Below are positions 5,371 to 62,000 of a stretch of 64,000 bases of DNA, in pieces. The DNA lies in the NCBI GenBank assembly GCA_029948255.1, contig JALIZF010001827.1, positions 718,001 to 782,000 on the forward strand. Direction: 5' to 3'. A program made the translations under genes and the position numbers. A model generated the notes under the pieces. That model searched no databases, was not told the DNA's origin, and worked only from the letters and a program-made list of their open reading frames with translations. The stretch is from Telmatactis stephensoni. Its lineage: Eukaryota; Cnidaria; Anthozoa; Actiniaria; Isophelliidae. The stretch's first letter is position 1; each line of letters begins with the position of its first letter.

Positions 5371-5822
5371 GTTATGCATACCAACGTAACTGTCAAAGAA
5401 CAAAATATAAAGCAAAACGTCGCTGCCTATAGTTTAGGTTTTAATCAAAATTCACACAAAACTGACCTTTTTTCACACATAGTTTTTCGGAGAATTGTTG
5501 CAGCTTTTTAAGTGACATTTCTGGTTGGTTATCATCTTTTTCTTGGAATAAATGTTGTATATTTGTCTTAAAAGTTTGATAATAAACACGAGTTTTGCCT
5601 CATGTATGTCCGAATGAATGAATTTATATTTGTCTTAAAAGTTTGATAATAAACACGAGTTTTGCCTCATGTATGTCCGAATGAATGAATTTGTAAACGC
5701 ACGCCGCCAAAAACGTGCCTTCAAAGCTCAATCAAAACAGCAAAATTTGTTGACGTTCCGGTGATGCGCTCTCGCCCAATCAGAGCACGGAAAAAATTGA
5801 CTTTGACAGTTGGTATATAACA
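5371..5822. mobile_element. Inverted-repeat element containing a 67-bp tandem duplication
   Basis: TTATGCATACCAAC followed by TGTCAAAG at the left has an inverse counterpart, CTTTGACAGTTGGTATATAA, at 5801-5820. Inside, a 67-bp unit is repeated head to tail, at 5558-5624 and 5625-5691, with virtually no differences, which suggests recent slippage. There is no coding potential. From 5823 to 6053 I see no feature. Confidence 0.45.
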
Positions 5823-6075
5823 ATTATATTTATTAATTCATTCATATATAGTAGGAATACGACACGAATAATTAATGAGCCGTTAAGTGCTCACTAGGTC
5901 ACAGACAAATTGAAGAATAATATTGATTTTCGTATGCCTTCATCTCGATCTTTGCCGTCTAGAGAACAGACTCTGAAAGGAGTTCTTCTTTCAGAAATAC
6001 ATGCAGAATGAATAGCGTGGTAAACAATAAACTGAGGTATCTATCTGAGTTATGCGGAAGTGCAGAGGAGGGTCC

Positions 6076-6099
6076 ACTACTATCCCACAATGCATTGCG
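6076..6099 (+). promoter_or_regulatory. ZNF143/STAF-like motif inside left TIR
   Basis: The inner part of the TIR reads ACTACTATCCCACAATGC and then ATTGCG. This resembles the animal ZNF143 (STAF) promoter motif as I remember it (ACTACAATTCCCAGAATGC, often followed by TTGCG). It lies 70 bp upstream of the ATG of the plus-strand transposon gene, in a promoter-like position. Binding is not shown. Confidence 0.5.
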
Positions 6100-6168
6100 T
6101 TTCATAATATATTATCATTTTGTGTGACGTCATCACTTCTTCGAAACCGGCCGCGGGTGAAGATCAAA

Positions 6169-7564
6169 ATGGCGGTGTTGAGATCGATCGCGGGTCATTC
6201 ATCAATAGTATTCAAGGACAGAGACCTCGTTTATGCCCACTGTGTGTCAAAAGACGAGTTTAAAGTGTATCTTCCAGGACTTGAAGGAGTAGAAGTCGTT
6301 TTTAGACTGATCCATTTGAGTTTTATCGAGGAATTGAGAGAGAGACGTGTTGCTCTTGTTCCTTGTACTACAAGTGACAACTGTTCGATCGATTCAAAAT
6401 TGAAAGACGTTCGAAGTCCAGTACTTATACGCCTAATTTCAAGCTCTTCTATAAAGGTAAGTTATGACGATATCTTTTTAGTTAAAAGACGCTGTTTTGA
6501 GTTATAAATTTATATATCTTTATCAGTTCTTCGATACTGAATTGGATGAAGAAGAAAGAGCAAATGGCGAAACTCAAAGCGCTACCGTAATTTGGAATTT
6601 TGATGTTATTCCCGGTCCATCGATCGATCAAGTTGCACCAAGAGACCCATCTCCAAGAGAGATAGACATGGAATTACCTCCATTAGATTTGGACTTTGTG
6701 GTTAGTTGCAACTGCTTTACAATTCAGATGCGTAATGAGTGCTTGTGCTCGTTCGAATTGCGGCAACTAGTTGAAGACATGTCTCTCGATGAACTACACC
6801 CTAGCACTTCTACTTCTTCGGCTACTATTCAAACAGCTAGCACTTCTACTTCTTCGGATACTGTTCAAGTACCTAGCACTTCTACTTCTTCGGATACCGT
6901 TCAAGAATCTAGCACGTCGACTTCTTCATCTACTGTTCAAGTCCCTAGCACATCTACTCCTTCAACTACTGTTCAAGTCCCTAGCACTTCTACATCTTCA
7001 AATACTGTTCAAATATCTAGCACTTCTACATCTTCAAATACTGTTCAAATACCTAGCACTTCTACATCTTCAAATACTGTTCAAGTACCTAGCACTTCTA
7101 CTTCTTCAAATACTGTTCAAGTACCTAGCACTTCTACTTCTTCAGATACTGTTCAAGAAGAAACAGTTGAATATTTTAAAATCAAAGGCTCCTTTTGGGA
7201 AAAAAGGTACCAAGATGCATTTCAAATGCTGTCTGATCAGTTGGTGGACAATATAATTCCCAGATTTAGAATTATCCCTGAACCAGACAACATAGAAGAC
7301 AAGAACGCTCAGAGGTTTGACATTTATAATCCTAACACAGATGTATGGATGCCATTAGGATATTGTCCTGTTCACAAAATACCCAAAATGATTCAAGCGC
7401 AGAGAAGAAATGAGATCACAAACATTAAACTTGCTGGGTACAAGAGACGGTACATCCCAAGGATATGTAATTTCAAGTTTGAAGGGGCACTGAACATTTC
7501 AAAGAGGGGAAAGTGGGGTAAAACTGATCCCAACAACACTTATAACTCTGTTATTCATGTGTAA
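6169..7564 (+). CDS. Transposon-encoded HIRAN-like protein with Ser/Thr repeats, 441 aa
   Basis: Two exons, 6169-6456 and 6527-7564, are joined in phase 0 across a 70-bp GTAAGT...CAG intron. The ATG at 6169 sits in AAAATGG context and starts MAVLRSIAGHSS. An upstream ATG in frame would read through the TIR and is less likely. Residues 1-190 are unrecognised. About 188-307 are ten 12-residue repeats of the PSTSTSSNTVQV type, encoded by a 36-bp DNA repeat (6800-7159). The C-terminal part (about 340-405) has EPDNIEDKNAQRFDIY, then LGYCPVHKIPKMIQ and ending KRRYIP. This resembles HIRAN domains (EP-N--D-NA ... iGyip), known from HLTF/Rad5-type helicases and thought to bind DNA ends. A role as a DNA-binding accessory factor in transposition is inference. 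The opposite-strand gene converges on it. Confidence 0.75.
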
Positions 7565-7566
7565 TA

Positions 7567-8024
7567 GAGTGAGTGCACTTAATCCGTAAAACACTTACTG
7601 AATGTTAGTGTGTAATAGTTCAATAGGCACAAAAGAAAACAATGAAAATAAGATCTACTAGTAATTAGTAGTCTACTATTTTATAGGTTAAGTGCGCTCA
7701 CTGTACATGAATCAATTTAGTAATATTGGACATTACAAGAGTAGAGTGGTTTCACTTAACCTGTGAAATAGATTAGACTAATAGTTGTAGCTCTTATTTC
7801 TACTGTTTTCTTTTGTTTCCATGTGACTATTAGGTACTCACTATTAGATTTTGTTTCATGGGTTAAGTGAAACCACTCTAACACACTTAATTTAGTGCAT
7901 CCACTCTAGAGTGGGCGCACTAATCTTAATCCGTAAAACACTAATTGAATGTTAGTGTGTGGAAATAAGATCTACTAGGAACTAGTAGTCTACTAACTAT
8001 TTCATGGGTTAAGTGCGCTAACTC
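7567..8024. repeat. Cluster of three related hairpins between the convergent transposon genes
   Basis: Three adjacent inverted-repeat units share a similar end plan. 7567-7703 has GAGTGAGTGCACTTAATCC ... GTTAAGTGCGCTCACT. 7745-7881 has AGAGTGGTTTCACTTAACC ... GGTTAAGTGAAACCACTCT. 7908-8024 has AGAGTGGGCGCACTAATC ... GGGTTAAGTGCGCTAACTC. The first and third share interior sequence (TCCGTAAAACACT, AATGTTAGTGTGT). They are either nested MITEs of one family or part of the transposon. The rest, 8025-8711, is AT-rich 3'-flank without a clear feature apart from small inverted CTACTAGTAG motifs near 8405-8440. Confidence 0.65.
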
Positions 8025-8711
8025 CAGTTTGTAAAATACAGTACTTAATAACTATTTCATATAAAAAAGATGTTTAATCTTCATTCAAGACAATATAATA
8101 GATAAAGTGAGGACACTCTAATTGGGCCTTCTTTAGATTAATTGATAATCAACCAATTATATTGAAGGTTTCTGCTCAAGATTGTTATTGTTATTGACTG
8201 CTGCTATCAGTTCTATCTCTGTCTGGTTTTACTGCTATTTCATCAGACAGTTTTGTCAAGTTGGTTGGGTTAGAGTATCCGCACTGTAATCTGTTCCATT
8301 TGACTAATAGTCACAAATTAAAAAAAATTCTAATTACTAACTAATTAGATTTTGGTATGAGCATTTTAATGGCCAATTACGAATTGTGCTTGCTGGTTGG
8401 CTGTCCTACTAGTAGTCTAATTGGTGACAGCCTACTAGTGGCGAAGTAACTGGAATTTTGAGCGAGCAAAATTCCAAATTCTGAATTGTAATAATTATTA
8501 TGTTTATACTAAAACAATTAGACCACAGGGTCCAGCGGACTACAAGTTGATAGCCCATGAGGCTGTATACAGTTATTTGTTTCTTTTACATAGTGTAAGC
8601 ACTCTATAAAAATTTAATTCTAAGTATGTTATCTTGAACAATTTTTTGCAAGAGTATTATCTTCTACATTAATATTTACATTGTTTTACATAAAAACATC
8701 AAATTCTTCAA

Positions 8712-11669
8712 TCAATTTGAATCATTTTGAGGGAGATTTGGGCAAGGTGGTAATTCAGCTAAGGGTCTAAATATTCTTTGTCTAATTGTGGTCTTGTTTC
8801 TGACTGGAAGAAAGGATCTTCCAGAAACAAATATAGATGAATCTTCCCTTCTGTTTAAAGTTAGTCTATGTAGGCGAAGTGGGTGGGTTTGTGGGTTGTG
8901 ATCATCATCATCATCATCATCACTGTCAGGATCTGTTTCATCGTTTGAATCTTCAGCATCTGTTTCATCGTTTGAATCTTCAGCATCAATTTCATCATCT
9001 TGGTGATGGTTGTCATTGACTGGGCGTTCATTGAATGATGGTAGCTCATCTTCTAAATCTCTGAATCGTTCGTTAATGGTCCAATAATAGAAGGGGAGGT
9101 CTGGGTCAACTCTCTTTGAGAACTCTCTGTCATAAATAAAATAATGATATAAGTCTTGTGACTGGTAAACCTGCATTATGTCAATAAACCTGTTATAAGC
9201 TCATACAAAAGTTGGTTCAAAGTTCTCAACAAATTTGGTGTCTGATAGAGTACAAACACATAAAGTGTGCAACATAAATAGTACTAATTACTGCTATTTT
9301 ATGCTAATTCTATTTTCTATTGATTTAGTACTAAATGGTACAAAGTATTGCACACTTTTAGTGTTAGCACTCTAAGATTTCATTACAAACTAAGAATTCA
9401 CAAGTATTAAAACAAAGCCCCCAAAAAGGCATTTGTATTACTAAAGTTATGATTCCAATTTAAGGAAAAAACACTACTTATTTGTATTTTTGTTGGTTTT
9501 TTTTTTGCTTAAATTAGTGCTTGTACTACCTACATGTATATCCCCAAGGGCGGATCCAGCCAAAACTACAGGGGGGGGACTTGACTGAAATTTCCAATAT
9601 ATGGGGGGGGGGGGCTTGAATGAAATTACTTGACTGAGGTTAACTTTTTATTTGTTTATTCAGTATTGTTGGCAAAAGAGGGGGGCTTCAGCCCCCCTTT
9701 GCCCCTCTGTGGATCCGCCCTTGATCCCCATGTTTGACAGTTCTATACACAATACTTACTAACCTCACAAGTTTTTGCCACGCATATTTGAACTCTTTGA
9801 GCGTAAAGATTTTCCCAAGGAACCTGTGTACTAAGGCAAAGAACGCTTCCACGTCATCTGTGGACCCAGCTCTAGGATGTTCTTGGTAGCCTATGGTCTC
9901 ATTCTGGCGCCTTCTAGACTCAAGACTCTCAATATTGGTGGTCACAGCTATTACTGTTTCCCGGGAAAACCCACATATTCCTTTGATTGGTCTGGAGAAA
10001 TTAAAAATTAAAATATATGCCCTTGTAATTGTCATCTGTACATCACTTTACTGTACTGCCACATATTGACAGTATAGCAACAACAGACAATATGTATATG
10101 ATATTTGATGATATTTCAGTTGTCGTTTCAAAATTTGTAAGAATCATATTGCTTGTACTGTATTTAGGAAATGAGATCAAATTGAAATAATAAGCAAATG
10201 AGATGTTCTTGGGTCAAGGGCACCTACAATTTGTGTTTTTTTTTCTCTCTTTCTCTCTCTCGTTCTCTTGTTGTGTGATTGGTTGTGCGATTAACAGTGT
10301 TATTGTAAAGCAAATACTAAGTAGATCTACAATTGATACCTGTTTATGTCAATGGTTGATAGGTCGTAATTATTTCTGTGCCAGGGGATCCAATCATCCA
10401 AAATCAAGTTTAGCATTTGGTAATTTTTCTTGCATCTGACCAAAAAGAAAATATCACTTCTACTATTATAACTTCTACTACTAAGTTGACAACAGATGAG
10501 CCACACTTACCACAGAAATAACAACAAAGATAACAATGATAAAAAAGAAATAAAAATGAAGGTTATTATTTCGAATGTAATAACGTTTACCTTTCAAGCT
10601 CCGAGAGTCCCCTTCCATCTGCTGCTTCATGCCATCCTGCAATGATGTCTACATACTTGGCTTCTTTGTCATATCCTCTTTCCCTAAGGAACCTAGATAC
10701 ATGGTAGGATAGAAGTCTCTCTGCATCCTGGACTGATTGCTTACGTTCTCCTGTTAGAGCTGCATGAGTTAGTCCAGTTCCAGGGTTTGTGAGGGCCTCG
10801 TCAAATCCATTCAGATTGAATCCCAATGGTCCACCTTCTCTCGTGTGTTTTGCAATCCTTTTCAAGATGTGGCAGTGGTCCTCGCGTTCATGGTACTCAT
10901 TTCCAGTTAAGGGATCGATTTCAGGAACATATAAATATTGCCTGAAATGGACTCCAGCAGCCTCATACTCATCCAGAATTCCTGTAAAAAGATGTATTAT
11001 AAACTCTAGCATGCATAATTCTACCAACATAAAAACTGCAGGCCACTGGAGTATCAGTGCATTAGGGATGAGTTAAAATTCAATTCCATGTAGTTTTACC
11101 TCTATAAACATAAGTTGCAACTAATGACCTCAATTTATGTAGAAAGGTCTCTGGAGTATTAGCAACAAAACTGTATGGAGTGTAACCAGGAGGGACTAGT
11201 CTTCCTCTCATGTATGTTATGGCATCCTCCAAAGTCATGTGCTGTTCATTAATCAAGGAATGTAGATTCAAAATTACATCATCAGGGATGTACTTGTTGG
11301 GTCTTTCCACCACAGGTTTTCCATTTGCATCTTCTAACAAAAAAAATTGAGTTTAGCTATAGGACATGTGTCCCAAAAAATACTACAAAATTATGATAAA
11401 TTTTCTTTGGAGGGATGTAAAAAACTTTCCTTTTCTATTTATTATTATTATCATCATCATCATTATTAAATGGTTAACATCTTCCCCCTATTAATAAAAG
11501 TTAATTATGGCTTCAAATTTTCTGTCTGTAAATCATGTCTGGAAATACGCAGTATCAAATATCTATTAACACTGAAAGATTTAATAAGTTTGTCACTGTC
11601 AAGTATTGTAATTATGTCTCTGACCTCTTGTAATTCAGTCATTCGACTGCAATGAGTGGGAATAAACAA

Positions 11670-11736
<67 letters not shown>

Positions 11737-14700
11737 TTCCCTTTCAAAGTCCTTGAGCTTTTACCTTGTATTGAAATTCATCTTACCTCCAATTTTAAGC
11801 AGCATGGATAATAATGTTGCTTCGCTCTGTCTGCTGACACTCTCTCGTGCATCTTTAATTACTTGTATAATATGGAGTGGCCTTGTCTCCCCCTGGGTTC
11901 TCAATGAACTAAATTCACCATCTGTCACTGTACCTTGGATAAAAAGTGATATTAACATATACCATATCTCTGAAAACGGAAATTATGGACATTAGAAAAG
12001 TCATACAATTTCCAACACTCACCTACAGGCTTTAGATCAAGTGCAATCATTGCTGCCTTCACTTTGTTTGTTACATCACGAATAAACTGGTCTCTAAAGG
12101 AGTGATATGGGATATACTGTACAGGTAAAGCATATGGCTTAGAAGATCTCTTTTCATCAGAAAGAAGGATGACCAGGACATGAGTTGCTGCTGGTTGTCT
12201 CTTTTTAACAAACACATTTCTCAAGTAAGTCAGTAAATCATATCTGAGGTTTGTGATGGAGGACACAACATCTGCAAGTCGTGGACAGTTTGGGTGCAGG
12301 TGAGGCAACAGGCTTTCCAACTTGCTCTTGAAGGAGTGTGCTTGAAGAAGGAGAGTGTTATACTCAACTCTCTCCCAACAAAGTGATTTTAGTAGTGCCT
12401 TTGAGGTATTCTGGCTGTCAAGTTTGCTTCGATACTCCTGATCAGCATCTCTCAGTCCTTCAGCAAGGAATGGTATGTCTTCTGCTGCTTTCTCAATCAA
12501 TTCAATCACCATTTTTTCAAGCTTGTCTCGGTTGGCAGGTGCTGGTAGTTTTGTCTGATTTCTTCTTCTAACGTACTCTTTGTAAAGATCTTCCGCTTTG
12601 CCATCCCCCAGATCAATATCCCCATTCCACTCGTTCCTCACAGACTCTTGTAAAGCTGGTTTCAGGTCACAGGCATCCACTTTCAGCCAGAAGCGCCCCT
12701 TGGGATGTGCTTTTTTCAAGCTTTTCAAAGCTTCAATCTAGATTTAGAAATGAATTGCCATCAAATTCCCAACATTTTGAACTTTTGTTAAGAGGCCTAA
12801 ATTGACAATGCAAACTGCTCCCTTATAAAATTTTTGAGAAAACAATTTTTAGGCTATGTGTTAACTGTCCTAGGAAATATATGATATGATGTGCAACAAA
12901 CCTGAATTTCAGGTTTTTTGCTGAATGTTGACTTTGCAGTCCTCTTCTGTACCCATTGTAAACTTGGTGCAGCAACATTCACTTTTGCCTAGAAATTGAA
13001 TAGTGACACTACATTAGACAGTGCGGTAACTTATTCATAACCTGATGAAAGGATTTTGACATGTTGATACTAATACAATATTTTTCTTATCATGCAGTGT
13101 AACACAATGTAGGTTGAATAATAGACTAACTAGTTGTTCCCTTACTGTTAAAGGGTCTTTGTGCTGTTCAACTGGTACGGAACTCCACATTGGCCCCCTG
13201 AACAAACGGTTAAAACGGGTAGGGAACTCTGCGCACATTGTTTCATGCCAAACAGCAAAATCATTGGGAACAGATATCTAGAATGCAAAAAATACAAAAA
13301 CACGTTACTTTAAATTATGTCACCCCGAAAGTCCCCCAAACTTAGAACTATAAACTTAACCTTATCTTTTATCATGTGTATACTCCAAAAAGGTTGTCAG
13401 AGATAAATTGTGATTTGCAAGGGCATGACTGAGGGTTTTTTTTTGACAAATAACATTGATTTGAAAGAAACAATATAATGCAAAATGTAAATCTCACAAC
13501 AAATAGGAAATTAGTCATAGCAGTGGATTTTATGATCATTAACATTTTATCTATCTTTTCATTTTTAGCATTTCACGAAGACTGTAGAAATGCATAAAAT
13601 CATGCATTATTGTAAGATTCACAATGTGTAGTTCCAAAAAATATCCATACCCCACCAAAGAGGGAATTTGTAATTTGTACCCTCTGGAACGAACCTTTTT
13701 CTTCCATACAAACTCTGTAATTTTGTTCCTTCTCTGACTCCCCTCCCCTCCAGAATTTCTAATTCCCTCCATGGTGGGATATGTATAATGAGTAATCATT
13801 GCACTAACCTGCATGATATTGGTACATGAAAAGAACATGATCTGGTACTGGATTAAGCCAAATGGCATCTGCTGCATTGGCAGAAGTGTATCAGTGCCGT
13901 CGGGTCTTTTTGTAGACAACAAGTAGACAAATCTGTAAACAAGATTTGGCTTTCCTTTTTCTTTTAAATTTTTCATTGCCTCCAATGATAGAGAGGCACA
14001 ATTTGAAGGGTTATCATCAATACCACTTGCAACAGCTAGATGCAAAAAGAGCCAGTCCAAGAACTTCAGTTTATTTGCATGACTGAGATTGAGAATTGAA
14101 GCCTGGATTTCATTAAATGTTGGATTCAGTGTAGGCTGTGGACCAACAGGAACAAACAAGGGCTCCTCTATTGTCTGCACCTTCTTATCAACTCCAGAAC
14201 TTTTCTTTTTAGATGAGGCAGTCGAGTCCAAGTTCAGATTGTCAAGATAATCTGCTAGTGTCAATCCAAAATGTTTTTCAGCTTCATCAACAGTTTTATA
14301 CTTCACTTTCAGGTTATTTATCAAACGACCACGAACACGTGTACCTTAAATAGACCAAAAAGGAAATAAGCACAAAAGTACAATGAATTGTGTAATTTTT
14401 AATTTAAAACTTTAAGAAGTAAAACTTTAATTTTCATATGTCATCTACACATACTCTTCTTAATATTACTTTATAGATTTCATCATTCTGTGAACAGTAC
14501 AATACTATTATGATTTGTAATGAGATAAGAAATACTGCAACTGTACTGGGGACTAATACTTACTTGTAAGAAGAAAATTTGATGATGTTGCCTCCCTAAT
14601 GTGTTTAGCTGCATCTTCCCATAGTTTATGACCTGGTTTAAATGCTGGCCATTCACTTAATTTCTCTGGCCATTCATAACTGGGATCTGTTTTGGCCAAG

Positions 14701-15352
14701 GCGATAAATTCTATGAGGGCACGGTCCTCATTAAATTGCCACTTGTGGTACCTGGCTGGTGAAGTTTTGAGAGATTGAAGTAGATTCTAAGAAACAAACA
14801 TTGTCCAGTTTAGGTTTACAAAATTGGTAGCATGATATCTCATATTTCAAAAGTAGAAAGTACAGAGTTAAAGTGGAAACTACTTCCTACTAATGATTAA
14901 CAACTATTACAAAGTTTCATAAGGAAATAGGCACCAGAGAATAAATATTGCATTTCTTTTAAACTAGTACATACTGCTATTCTATTTATATTGGTCTCAT
15001 TTCAATTCAATATTGTAAATACATTATGTAAATACATTATGGGTATATAAGGGGGCATAAACTTAATATTTTTATAGGCAGTTTAGATAGTCTACGTCGA
15101 TTAGCCAAACTTTTAAAAGCTAAATATCATTGCCACGTAAATAAAGTGTATTATGATTTACTTCTAAAACCAAATCATTTATAATCATTAAAATACCTTT
15201 TTCACTGGACTTTTTGATGGTGGTGTAGAAAAATGCAAAGGTTTTCTAGCAGTAGAGTTCGCTTTAGATAGCAATTGACGGCGTTTTGGTACTGGTTTGT
15301 TTGGCGTATCGCCAGTTGCAACACTGGGACGCTTTACACCAGCACCATCCAT
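8712..15352 (-). CDS. Candidate transposase, Myb/SANT-like plus DDE-like protein, 1,087 aa
   Basis: Eleven coding exons (minus): 15197-15352, 14564-14786, 13809-14344, 13146-13277, 12902-12988, 12023-12737, 11787-11933, 11100-11333, 10591-10981, 9764-9991, 8712-9126. All have GT-AG borders and matching phases, totalling 3,264 nt with no internal stop. Start MDGAGVKRPSV. Residues about 66-150 (WQFNEDRALIEFIALAK, LWEDAAKHIREAT, RLINNLKVKYKTVDEAE) look like a trihelix Myb/SANT-type DNA-binding domain. FWLKVDACDLK (D399, D402) and GDIDLGDG follow, then EREDHCHILKRI (D778), then EHPRAGSTDDVEAFFALVH (D919, D920, E922). These resemble the three acidic blocks of RNase H-fold transposases; the assignment is inference. 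The tail is Asp-rich. A 5' noncoding exon ending at a GTAAG donor near 15805 probably starts in the right TIR and contains a 22-codon upstream ORF (ATG at 15883). Confidence 0.85.
9243..9375. repeat. Hairpin in transposase intron 10, AGAGTAC/GCACTCT ends
   Basis: AGAGTACAAACACATAAAGT is matched by an inverse ACTTTTAGTGTTAGCACTCT. It resembles the hairpins at 7567-8024 in starting with AGAGT and having CACT about ten bases in. The left-end string GATAGAGTACAAACAC also occurs at about 4193, outside this transposon. Confidence 0.5.
9546..9723. mobile_element. MITE in transposase intron 10, AAGGGCGGATCC ends
   Basis: AAGGGCGGATCCAG at the left and GTGGATCCGCCCTT at the right are inverted, with G runs inside. 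The flanks TATCCCCA and GATCCCCA form a near-match 8-bp duplication, as expected for hAT-like MITEs. It entered the intron after the host transposon existed and does not disturb a splice site. Confidence 0.65.
11668..11735. repeat. (ATT)n microsatellite in transposase intron
   Basis: Perfect ATT/AAT tract of about 22 units, with a shorter ATT/ATC tract at 11438-11468. The bracketed 230 bp may be the 3' end of a small retroelement, but I see no diagnostic motif. Confidence 0.85.
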
Positions 15353-15898
15353 CTAAATCCTTAAAACAGAAGCAATAGAGGTTAGTTTAACATAAAACTC
15401 AGTCGTATATGATCAAAATTGCATTTTAAAAACTCTTAAAGACGTAAATCTACAATATATCGAACCTTATACGAATCACGTTTGTCCATTGCCGCCATTT
15501 TTCCCGCGAAAATACACCAAGTGTTTTGTACTTAAAAGACTGTAAATCGTGGGTCACTTTTGGTCATTTTTAATCTACGTTATTTTTAGATATCTGGACT
15601 TTTACTTGAAGTTATTAAAACTTAAAATACTCAAAAAAGTGGCTAGCAACAACCGTTGAGAAAACTATGTTTTAATTTGCCCTGTCACACCGAGCGGCCT
15701 ATAGGTGACAAGCGTTTGAAGCTCTATATTTGCGTTATTTTAAACAACTGATTATGCAAATTGTAACTATTGTTATTCATGAATCCATTTTGTAAGGGTC
15801 TTACCTTATTCAAGTCACGCAATTGCTTCCTCGGACAAAGAAAGAAACGCCTGAACACACATGGCTCTTGATCCAGACGCCATATTGGATTCCCAGTT

Positions 15899-15922
15899 CG
15901 CAATGCATTGTGGGATAGTAGT
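15899..15922 (-). promoter_or_regulatory. ZNF143/STAF-like motif inside right TIR
   Basis: Exact inverse copy of the motif at 6076-6099, facing into the transposon. It sits just upstream of the likely first, noncoding exon of the transposase gene. The same motif thus precedes both genes of the element. Confidence 0.5.
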
Positions 15923-15945
15923 GGACCCTCCTCTGGCGGAAGTGT

Positions 15946-28660: not shown

Positions 28661-31001
28661 GAACGAACGTTAACATTCGAAGTTAAAAACTCAAAAATGA
28701 AAATGTACAGGCGAAAATTAAACGAGGACAGAGAGAAAAACAAAGTTAATGGGAATAAAAAAAGGGAAACATAAAACAGCTTAACTAAAATATGAGGCTG
28801 CCATATGTAAATTTAAATCCAAGAACAAACTTTTTAAAAAATGCATTAGATGTTGCAGACCTCTGTGGAAAAGGACGTTTGTGAAGTTTTTAGATGCGCT
28901 TTCTGAAATTAAGTCTTATGACTGTGGTCTTACATTAACTAGACGCAAATGCTGAATTCACTCGGACTACTAAGAACCTTATTCAAACGTTAATGACAAC
29001 CAACTCGAAAGCTGTGCTGCTTTGGTTGCTATTCACTAACAAAATATTTTCTATCTAGTTACCGCATTATCAGCTTCTTTTTGTATTGATTTATATTTGT
29101 AAAACTATTTGTAAAGTGTAGATTAAAAAATTGGAATTGGAATTGGAAATTGGGAGAGGCACCCGTTACTGCTGTTTATACATAGGCGAGCTGTCCGTGG
29201 CAAGCAGCAGCTCTTTTGCTTTGATTTGAACAACTTGCGTTCATTTACAATATAAACAGGTTGTTTAAATCGTTTGTCAGTGTTATAAAATAGAAATGTT
29301 TTAACAGCTCTCTGGAATCTCTTCATGATCATATAAACTCTCTTGAAAACCGCGTGTTCTTGACTAACCCAACTGCACATGCACGGCCAGCAAGCAGCCC
29401 CAGTACACACTGAACTAGACGAAAAATGTTGCGTTCACTCAGGCTACCAGCAAAGTATAGCCTCTTTGTTGGTAACACCAGTGAACGCAACACCTTGGTT
29501 TTGCAAGCTGTCATCAAAAGTTTTGTTAGTACAATTTGAGCCAAACTGAAGAGAATAGACAACTGCTCCTGACCTAGATATTTAACAATGGAAATGAAAA
29601 ATCCTGAAGTTGTTTGTTCGCCTATCAAAGTTGCAATTCTTGGCTTTCACTTACGTCATCGAAAAATTTCCAGGGCCATGAGTGAAATCAAATGTCATTC
29701 ACTCAGAAGAGCACATAAAGCTATGTAACTCTGCAAAATTTTGAAGTGAAACGAGTTTTTGTTGCAAAGATATTGACATTTTAACTGGTCATTCTTTCAG
29801 TAAGAAATGTATGGCACCGCTTCGAAATTCGTGGTTGGTGTCACCAAAATATCAGCGCATTTCACATCCCTGTGTAAAATCAGTGTGAATTCAAAAGCTG
29901 AAAGCAAACTCGTTCCCGTCCGCACGCACGTTAAAAAATCAAATTATACTGTTTGGAGCCTTAAGACCCGGATACACCTGAACAAAAATAGAAAAATTTG
30001 GCCTCTCTTGGCCTCCCACTTTGAGCTCAATGAAGAAGAAGGGGAAAGCATAAACTCTAGAGCTAGAAAGTAGGGAGGCAAAACTCTTAATGTATATTAG
30101 GATCATCCTCAGGAACTTACAAACACAAGTAATGCGTACCAGATTCACTGATACCAACTGAGCTATAATGGCCAGCCCTAATTGGGAGCAGTGGTGAGTC
30201 AGCTCCAAGGTCATTCTAGGAATCTACATGGACTTATGTGTTCGTAATTTCCGAGCCTAGAAATAAGCGCGTTAGTGTGTTTAAGACAAACAATTCATTT
30301 GAAATAAAATTAATTTTATAAAATTCAGTGCAAAAACCTCATTAGATTATTGTTCTTTTAGCAACATATGCGGTGAGAAATTCGTGTTACTCTTTATCAG
30401 TTATAGAAAATTTCCAGTTGACATCCAGCAATTTGAGACGTGGAATGAACGTACTATACTCTAGTAAGAATTCGATACTTGGTCATAGTATTGGAGATCA
30501 AGTTCAAAATAACAGCCCATTCTGAATTGGAATTTACATTTTTTTTACTGCTCAAAGAGCCTAGTTTTGAAAGCCATTTTGTCAGTTGGCCGCCATCTTG
30601 AATTCTCCTACATCCTCACAATCACTTCGAAGAGTTCGCACAAGCTCTGACGTGACGCGACTCTCTAGTGCGTCGCGCTCAAAGATGAGATTGATGAATG
30701 AAGGGCATTGTTTTTATACGTCTCAGCCAATCATAACATACTACGCAAAGCATGTTGGGAACTATTGCGCAAATTTTCCGTTTTGCTTCAAAAAAAATAA
30801 AAAATAAAAATAAAAGAGACGCGCTGCAGAACTAGACTGGTCTAGACTGGTTTGCCATATATGGCTGCCTATTGACTATTGAGGAATTATATTGATGGTA
30901 TATTATACACTAACACCTTTACTTCAGTGATCTTTTAATTTAGTTCAAAACATGCATAATCCAAACTGAAATTTTCGTAGTTAGGTTATTTTAATCGGTA
31001 T
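28661..31001. other. Intergenic stretch with minor repeats
   Basis: Past the Caspr-like poly(A) signals I see no gene. Around 29125-29150 short GGAATT repeats look like a retroelement tail. A hairpin lies at 29429-29493 (TGTTGCGTTCACTCAG / CCAGTGAACGCAACA). At 30141-30172 the minus strand reads TAGCTCAGTTGGTATCAG, a tRNA box A, suggesting a SINE without a clear box B. A GGCCGCCATCTTG block at about 30588 is YY1-like, but no ORF of note follows. Confidence 0.35.
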
Positions 31002-59000: not shown

Positions 59001-62000
59001 TTGTTGGAATAAATATTACTCTGGGGCCAGCTGCTTGAAAGTGCTATAACCCACCTTCAAGCAACTGGAGGTATTTGGTCACAACTTGATATAATATTAT
59101 AATTGCTATTTAAAAACATGCCAGATTGCCAGTCATTTGTGCCTTTTGAAGATCCTACCACTCTCAAAATGTTATTGTCATGTACATGTAACATAGCTGC
59201 CAACCCCCAAGGCTTTCGTATCTGGAGATCAACATTTTTTCCTTAGAATTGGGTCGATTTTCACGCTCAGTGGGGGGGGGGGGGGGGGGGGGGGGAGACG
59301 ATTTTTCAAGAAGGATAGACGATATTTCAGTTAAAATGGCCGCGATTTTAGGGTTCGAGCGATTATCCGGGAGATTTAGGTCTTTATCCGGGAGACCGGG
59401 AGACGAGGCCCAAAATCTGGAGACTCCCGGATTATCCGGGAGGGTTGGCAGCTATGATGTAAACCAATTTTCCTGAACACAACTGTAAAATATTTCCCCT
59501 GCCCCTCCCTCTTCAGAATTTCCAATTGCCTTCATGGTAGGATTTTGATTGTTCTGATACTACCCAATTAATGAAAGTCCTTATTAAGGTTGGTGCCTAC
59601 TATTGTCCGCGCGCACTGCTTTCTGCGCATGCAAAAACACTGAATTTTTGTCGGTAAAGCAATCGTAAAAGCAAGGCCTTTTTACGACTTTTTGAAAAAA
59701 TAAACTTACAGAATTAAAGGAAAACCATTTAGCCTCTCCTGTGTTTGAATGAAATTCACAGTTGAAAAATAGAACCTGAGTTACAACGCCTGTTTTGACT
59801 ATCATTTCTACCAGAAACGATCTGTTTTCGCCGCCATCTTGAAAATTTCCCACAATGCATTGTAATTCGCTCTACTTTCCAGGGAGGGCTAGGGAATTTT
59901 TGATCATTTTCGCGAATTCTGATCAGTTTTCGCGCGTTTATCGGCAAATAACTTTCTAAATCGCACGGATACCCCTATTTTTTATTTTTGTAAATTGTAA
60001 AGTGGAGATTAACCTACTATTTTAAAATACTTTTATGAATTTAAAATTGAAACTTGATTGCAAAAATTGGACTTTTCATATGGCGGTCATGAACCAAAAC
60101 AGGTCTAAAACTAGTAAAAAGTCATTGAAAAAAATTGTTATTCTGGTTTTTCATATTTCGTATGGCATTGACAAGTAAGAGAATTGTGTTGTAAACGTTT
60201 TAGTAAAAAAAGTTTGATATTTTTTCAAAATATGGGGTATTTATGATTTTTTCTTTGGGCCTCAAGATTAGGCAGATTTTGCAACATTTGATGGCGTGTA
60301 ACTCATTAATATGCACGGTGACCCCCAATTTTTTCCTTGGATTCTAGCTCCCTATGATGAGTTCTTTGATACCCATGTGGTTTTTGGCCAAAAAAATTAC
60401 CTTCCCATTAGTAGGCACCAACCTTAATTGTTTTGTTGATAAATGTCTTTCCATTTCATAGCTCTGGTGTCCAGTGGGATGAAATGAACATACTAATGAC
60501 ATACCATCCCGCCGACAAAGATTATGGACATATGAAAATCAACGAACCACCAACACCCTACAGCAAGCTAAAAGACCCTGATGGAGAAGGCAACAGTGTT
60601 GATCCTGTTTCTGATGATGAGGGTCAAGAGCTGGACCCTGAAAATCTCTCTCAAAGGTATAATTGTAGACAACATTATAATACTATATGCTATTATTGTC
60701 AGTAGTTACATGTATTAGTGATAAATCAATCTGTTTTCTATTTCTCACATAAAGTACTTGCAGTGTGCGAGCAATAGACTCATTGTGCAATTATATCCTG
60801 TGTCACTTCAGACATCTGGTAAATCAGTTTTTCAACACTGACTCTTCACTATGACACCAACTACCTTTATTTTCAGATCAGCACAATTTCTTGTTTATGT
60901 GAGGGGTAAAAAATTGTTGGAAATTTTAACCCTTTGAGACCTATTAAAAAAAAGGAAATATAATTTTCTAGATATTAGGCAGCATAATTCAGGCCTTTCT
61001 GTTTGCTTACCTAACAAACAGTCAAGAATTAGACAAGCATCGATGGAAAAGTGAGCTTTTAGTATTGCAAGACAACAAATGTTTCCTTGACATCTCCTTA
61101 TATGGACTCAATAATTTTCAAAAAAAATTTGTCTTAAAACTGGCAACAATTTCCCAAAACAATCAAAATGCAACTTACGTGGTTTTTTGGGGGGGGAGGT
61201 GGACAAAATTGAGCCTTTAAGTTTGTAAGCTATAACATCAAGAAGTTTAATTCTAAATTAACACTAGTAATTTTTTTCAGGGTTTCAGATGCTCCAAGAA
61301 GACGAAGTCTGGAGGATTTGCAAGGTGATTTTGAAGAGGAAGATGATTCAGAATTAACAGAGGAAGAAAAAGGTAACATCACTGTCTCATGTACAAATTA
61401 AGCCTGGTTTTCATGAGCAACAGAAGCAGTGCTAGCAACATACATGTAACTATGTACTCTGACTCAGTGTTGCATTTCTCACCTAGGTGTGAGAGAAGAC
61501 ACCAGTAGACAATGCATCACTGAGTCTGGGTATGTTGCTCCCGCTTCTGCTTCCGTTGATCATGAAATTAACTGGGCTTTAGGCTTTAGATGATTTTGTA
61601 ATGGTAGTCAAGGACTGTTCATTTCAGAGTTTGCATAATGAAAATAAATTAATTGTGATGGACAATGGTCGATGAATAAAAAGAGTTAACAAAACGTTGT
61701 GGGTGTTTACAAGTCATTGTTGCACCAGACCATGTAATTTTTAAATTAAACGTGCACTATGCTAACATTTGCACTCATTTTTTTTTTTTTCAAGATCAAA
61801 TAAGCACTCATTTCATATAATACTGACATTAATTTTTAATTAAGCCTTTTTCTTTTAGAGAAAAGGAAGGAGTTTAAAAAGCATAGGAAACAACATTATA
61901 ATGAATTTTCACAAGTACAACTTGCAAGGAAACTAATAGAAGAAGAATTGAAAGCTTTAGAAGATGAAGATGAAGTAAATACATCAGCAGATAAACCTGT

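Follow-up and report, generated by a model that had tools for sequence, protein, structure and literature searches.

P elements represent a structurally odd branch of DNA transposons that is GTP-dependent and THAP-bearing, and PIF/Harbinger elements possess two genes each, a Myb-like domain in the system and 3-bp target duplications. P elements generate 8-bp duplications in fly and zebrafish (PMC7776569), and maize MuDR combines 9-bp duplications with promoters in the terminal inverted repeats (TIRs) and convergent transcription of two genes (PMC3276141). Here, we describe an element of 9,873 bp at positions 6063-15935 of a 64-kb stretch of contig JALIZF010001827.1 from the sea anemone Telmatactis stephensoni; the whole stretch of 64,000 nucleotides is referred to as the window. 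The element carries gene 1 on the plus strand and gene 2, encoding the putative transposase, on the minus strand. The element is probably an intact cut-and-paste DNA transposon that was recently mobile and belongs to a sister lineage of the P-element superfamily.

The left TIR (6063-6099, plus strand) and the right TIR (15899-15935, minus strand) are inverse copies identical at 37/37 bp, and both are flanked by the 9-bp duplication GCGGAAGTG (6054-6062 and 15936-15944); comparison of both ends thus confirmed the perfect repeats and duplication described in the sequence-only reading. No third match to the TIR with up to 13 mismatches was found elsewhere in the window. This pairing of repeats and duplication is more than chance, since the same TIRs recur with 9-bp duplications at other sites in the genome. 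The search for further copies that had been proposed on the basis of the TIRs was productive: with the left 77 bases as query, 40 matches, both window ends counted, turned up in the animal's own genome of 483.5 Mb (40 of 55 candidates scored). For a non-autonomous type of about 1.5 kb, 19 loci were fetched (3 + 16) and ten then extended. Eleven of the 19 had both ends within the fetched stretch, and all 11 show perfect 9-bp duplications, corresponding to nine distinct sites, as two sites were read as allelic because each occurs on two contigs. The remaining eight loci showed one end only within the fetched range, and so did C200, C427/C385 and C282/C434 (513-523 kb, 30-32 kb). A further pairing of ends at C22 was dropped as chance, one end having 13 mismatches and the duplication being absent. 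Nine non-autonomous copies showed both ends when first fetched; they have only about 73-76 bases at one end plus the TIR in common with the full-length element, and compared with one of them, L017, the other eight are 90.1-99.9% identical.

As for copies bearing the transposase, a search with exon 6 of gene 2 revealed 48 matching pieces in the same genome, many of them stop-free. Of the subfamily A copies found to carry the transposase, the one in the window is intact and the other two are truncated or fragmentary: C724 ends at element coordinate 4762, so that gene 1 and the final exons are absent, and C283 misses the right end and contains two inserts (6-7 kb). Subfamily C, whose exon 6 is about 52% identical, includes full-length copies with equal exon-6 match scores, namely C499 (9,142 bp), C95 (9,143 bp) and C282 (9,330 bp), with perfect 9-bp duplications GTGTCAGCG, GAATGTTAC and CTATTAAGA, respectively, and C426 (9,136 bp), which is without one. 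Family E (about 42% identical) is represented by C4 (9,109 bp, duplication CTCAGCGGG) and C346, which has no duplication; comparison of two parts, 3.6 kb and 1 kb, gave 99.97% and 100% identity between them. In total, perfect 9-bp duplications were found at 14 distinct sites, window included. Inverted ends with fixed-length duplications at several sites are the hallmark of class II TIR transposons, and the initial description of the element as autonomous-looking and recently mobile is supported. Since full-length copies at different sites show complete or nearly complete identity in the parts compared, elements of this lineage may still be active, as judged from their sequences.

Gene 2 was modeled with 12 exons encoding 1,119 amino acids (aa), with predicted splice sites and introns all of the GT-AG type: 15197-15352 (start codon at 15352), 14564-14786, 13809-14344, 13146-13277, 12902-12988, 12023-12737, 11787-11933, 11100-11333, 10591-10981, 10340-10435, 9764-9991 and 8712-9126 (including the stop codon). 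The first model (11 exons, 1,087 aa) was also open; yet, aligned with homologues it left a gap, and the missed exon filling it is the tenth (10435-10340). The two spliced genes are thus open as claimed earlier, though the predicted exons number 14 in total and not 13. Exon 2 aligns with the part of homologue P0003 in which a Myb/SANT-like domain was matched. The candidate catalytic residues are D399 in the KVDACD motif of exon 6, for which homology with the P0004 model also indicates a helical insertion, D621 in VTDGEF of exon 7, and E954 in STDDVEAFF of exon 11, to which the role is assigned from motif reading. The ratio of nonsynonymous to synonymous substitution rates (dN/dS) between gene 2 and its truncated counterpart in C724 equals 0.75, an uninformative value. 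By eye, the last intron of gene 2 harbors a small insert at about 9545-9725 that resembles a repeat, with inverted ends containing GGATCC and with G runs.

The kinship of gene 2 is visible mainly in its homologues. In the structure model of the homologue P0004, the best fold match is P transposase (alignment with 6p5a spanning 130-569, of which the end residues only are given and which should take in the region of PF21788); the model also matches Transib, RAG1 and Hermes, which places it among DDE/D RNase H folds with predicted catalysis. PF21787, the P-type RNase H family, gave a signal in 14 of 20 gene 2 homologues, sub-threshold where scores were seen (<24.6 bits), and no match in the window protein. 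PF21788, the THAP domain and the Mutator-like element (MULE) domain PF10551 are not among the 22 families matched by the 20 homologues, several of which are N-terminally short, and neither THAP nor MULE was found in the window protein. Comparison by hhalign of the whole gene 2 protein with P-type transposases of the same genome gave no match; when restricted to the core, it was positive. Searches of PDB sequences returned no meaningful match. The sequence-only reading had placed the element in no recognized superfamily, which holds insofar as neither window protein reaches a Pfam cut-off. It does not hold against the P fold in the homologue model and the recurrent PF21787 signal, which together indicate a divergent P relative and not an unrelated superfamily.

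In the environmental homologue P0012, whose cluster contains eight member sequences, the proposed second catalytic D is replaced by N, and this branch is perhaps domesticated or inactive. Five loci of the T. stephensoni genome (L073-L077, on C212, C182, C197, C230 and C564) encode P-type transposases whose open frames span 1,010-1,015 aa and whose scores hardly differ, possibly constituting a separate young P family. The translations of L073 and L074, cut by the locus end, show C2H2-like zinc fingers by eye, and L073 matches the P-type GTP-binding domain too.

Gene 1 starts 70 bp inward of the left TIR and is open over two exons with predicted splice sites, 6169-6456 (96 aa, conserved in homologous elements) and 6527-7564 (including the stop codon), encoding 441 aa. 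Its second exon comprises a minisatellite (6763-7229) with a 36-bp unit in nine registers, coding for an STSTSS...TVQ repeat that the gene 1 homologue of C499 does not contain, and a C-terminal HIRAN-like domain (7166-7561). The HIRAN family PF08797 scored 13.8-15.7 bits against gene 1 of three subfamilies, below the cut-off of 24.7, and gave no match in two further ones. The HLTF HIRAN domain binds 3' DNA ends (PMC7214843). The gene 1 domain resembles HIRAN of HLTF/Rad5 in sequence pattern and weakly in fold; it differs in lying below the Pfam cut-off, in the absence of a visible helicase or RING, and in its location in a transposon accessory protein. The search with the gene 1 protein, in which 8,000 candidates were scored, yielded no hit at E <= 0.001, probably because the low-complexity repeat dominated it, and NCBIfam gave no match to the two gene 1 domains. 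Between gene 1 and its damaged counterpart in C427, dN/dS amounts to 0.45-0.57, likewise uninformative. That this domain is instead another small nucleic-acid-binding fold, with a role that could lie in regulation or repression of transposition, is a substantial minority possibility. Against it, HIRAN was proposed before the profile scan of three other subfamilies, all of which then gave it below threshold, and all five aligned gene 1 versions have the motif P-x-N-x2-D-x-N-A and a G-Y pair without any change.

Gene 1 lies at the far end and converges on gene 2 in all five subfamilies compared (A, B, C, D and E; F, on C202, was left out). The convergent layout, initially regarded as unusual, is kept across these subfamilies and resembles that of maize MuDR (PMC3276141). 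It is this layout, with gene starts near the TIRs, together with duplications of about 9 bp, that would make the element a MULE. We nevertheless rejected this membership as very unlikely, as no MULE domain was detected in the window protein or in the homologue families; P0016, a further match that does carry PF10551, appears on visual inspection to be a fusion gene model. Moreover, the TIRs measure 37 bp as opposed to about 220 bp in MuDR, and the best fold match is P transposase. PIF/Harbinger elements likewise have two genes and a Myb-like domain, but their duplications are of 3 bp.

The P-transposase fold and the PF21787 signal could also make the element an ordinary P superfamily member in which the 9-bp duplication and the missing THAP are minor variations, which we consider unlikely. 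It shares with Drosophila P and zebrafish THAP9/P-like elements the transposase fold, likely DDE residues (inferred), short TIRs and non-autonomous copies. However, all 14 sites carry 9 bp and not the 8 bp reported for fly and zebrafish P, no THAP domain was found, a second, convergent gene is conserved, and the RNase H fold is predicted to contain an extra helical bundle. Sequence similarity is scarcely detectable. Against PF21787, the ten best rows for P-type transposases encoded in this genome range from 67.9 to 98.1 bits, compared with <24.6 for the homologues. As the 8-bp and THAP features of P failed and the MULE domain is absent, the element was filed as a P-related sister lineage, and we infer P-like catalysis in a MuDR-like layout. 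A host gene pair framed by unrelated inverted repeats, which the spliced and intact state of both genes might suggest, has practically no chance: the ends, duplications and genes recur at unlinked sites, and these multi-copy data refute it.

For such a P-related transposon, the gene 2 protein would bind both element ends, excise them and then join the 3'-OH ends to target DNA, with a spacing of 9 bp between the two joining points. Its N-terminus would correspond to the Myb/SANT-like domain, and its core to an RNase H fold built around the three candidate residues, with the helical bundle inserted early in the fold and a further insertion region predicted ahead of the last catalytic helix. The gene 1 product would act as an accessory protein, whose HIRAN-like domain may bind exposed 3' DNA ends in excision, integration or repair.

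The TIRs may also act as host-driven promoters for both genes. The inner TIR block ATCCCACAATGCATTGCG (6082-6099, plus strand; in the right TIR at 15899-15916) agrees at 17 of 18 positions with the STAF/ZNF143 consensus YWCCCRNMATSCMYYRCR, taken from PMC5006282, and is a possible host-factor promoter site. Among the TIRs of A, C and E the middle differs, GGAGG near the tip and the inner block are common, and the latter matches the consensus at 16-17 of 18 positions; when 20,000 37-mers were drawn at random from the right-hand portion of the window, 58 reached at least 16 of 18. Because both genes start near TIRs with a ZNF143-like inner block, the ends may double as promoters. Binding by the transposase would explain this conservation equally well. 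Two more 17/18 matches lie in the window, at 59847-59864 (plus strand) and 30744-30761 (minus strand); the former adjoins GCCGCCATCTTG, and the host may thus use such promoters. Conceivable rather than probable is the broader proposal of a superfamily-rank animal lineage sister to P, in which a P-fold transposase with the helical-bundle insertion would be joined by a HIRAN-like, 3'-end-capturing partner, the termini serving as transposase sites and ZNF143-type promoter mimics that fire both genes inward.

No paper was recognized from its title or the start of its abstract as describing this family; Repbase and Dfam were outside the search, and a database-only entry is possible. No relatives were found on viral contigs. 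Those detected belong to cnidarians, amphioxus, an echinoderm, molluscs and a nemertean. Differing in footprint length, insertion and partner protein, such a divergent sister lineage would reveal what is ancestral in the P machine, and the HIRAN-like accessory, if true, would offer a testable route for transposon handling of 3' ends. Left of the insertion, at 5558-5691, the window contains two perfect 67-bp tandem copies.
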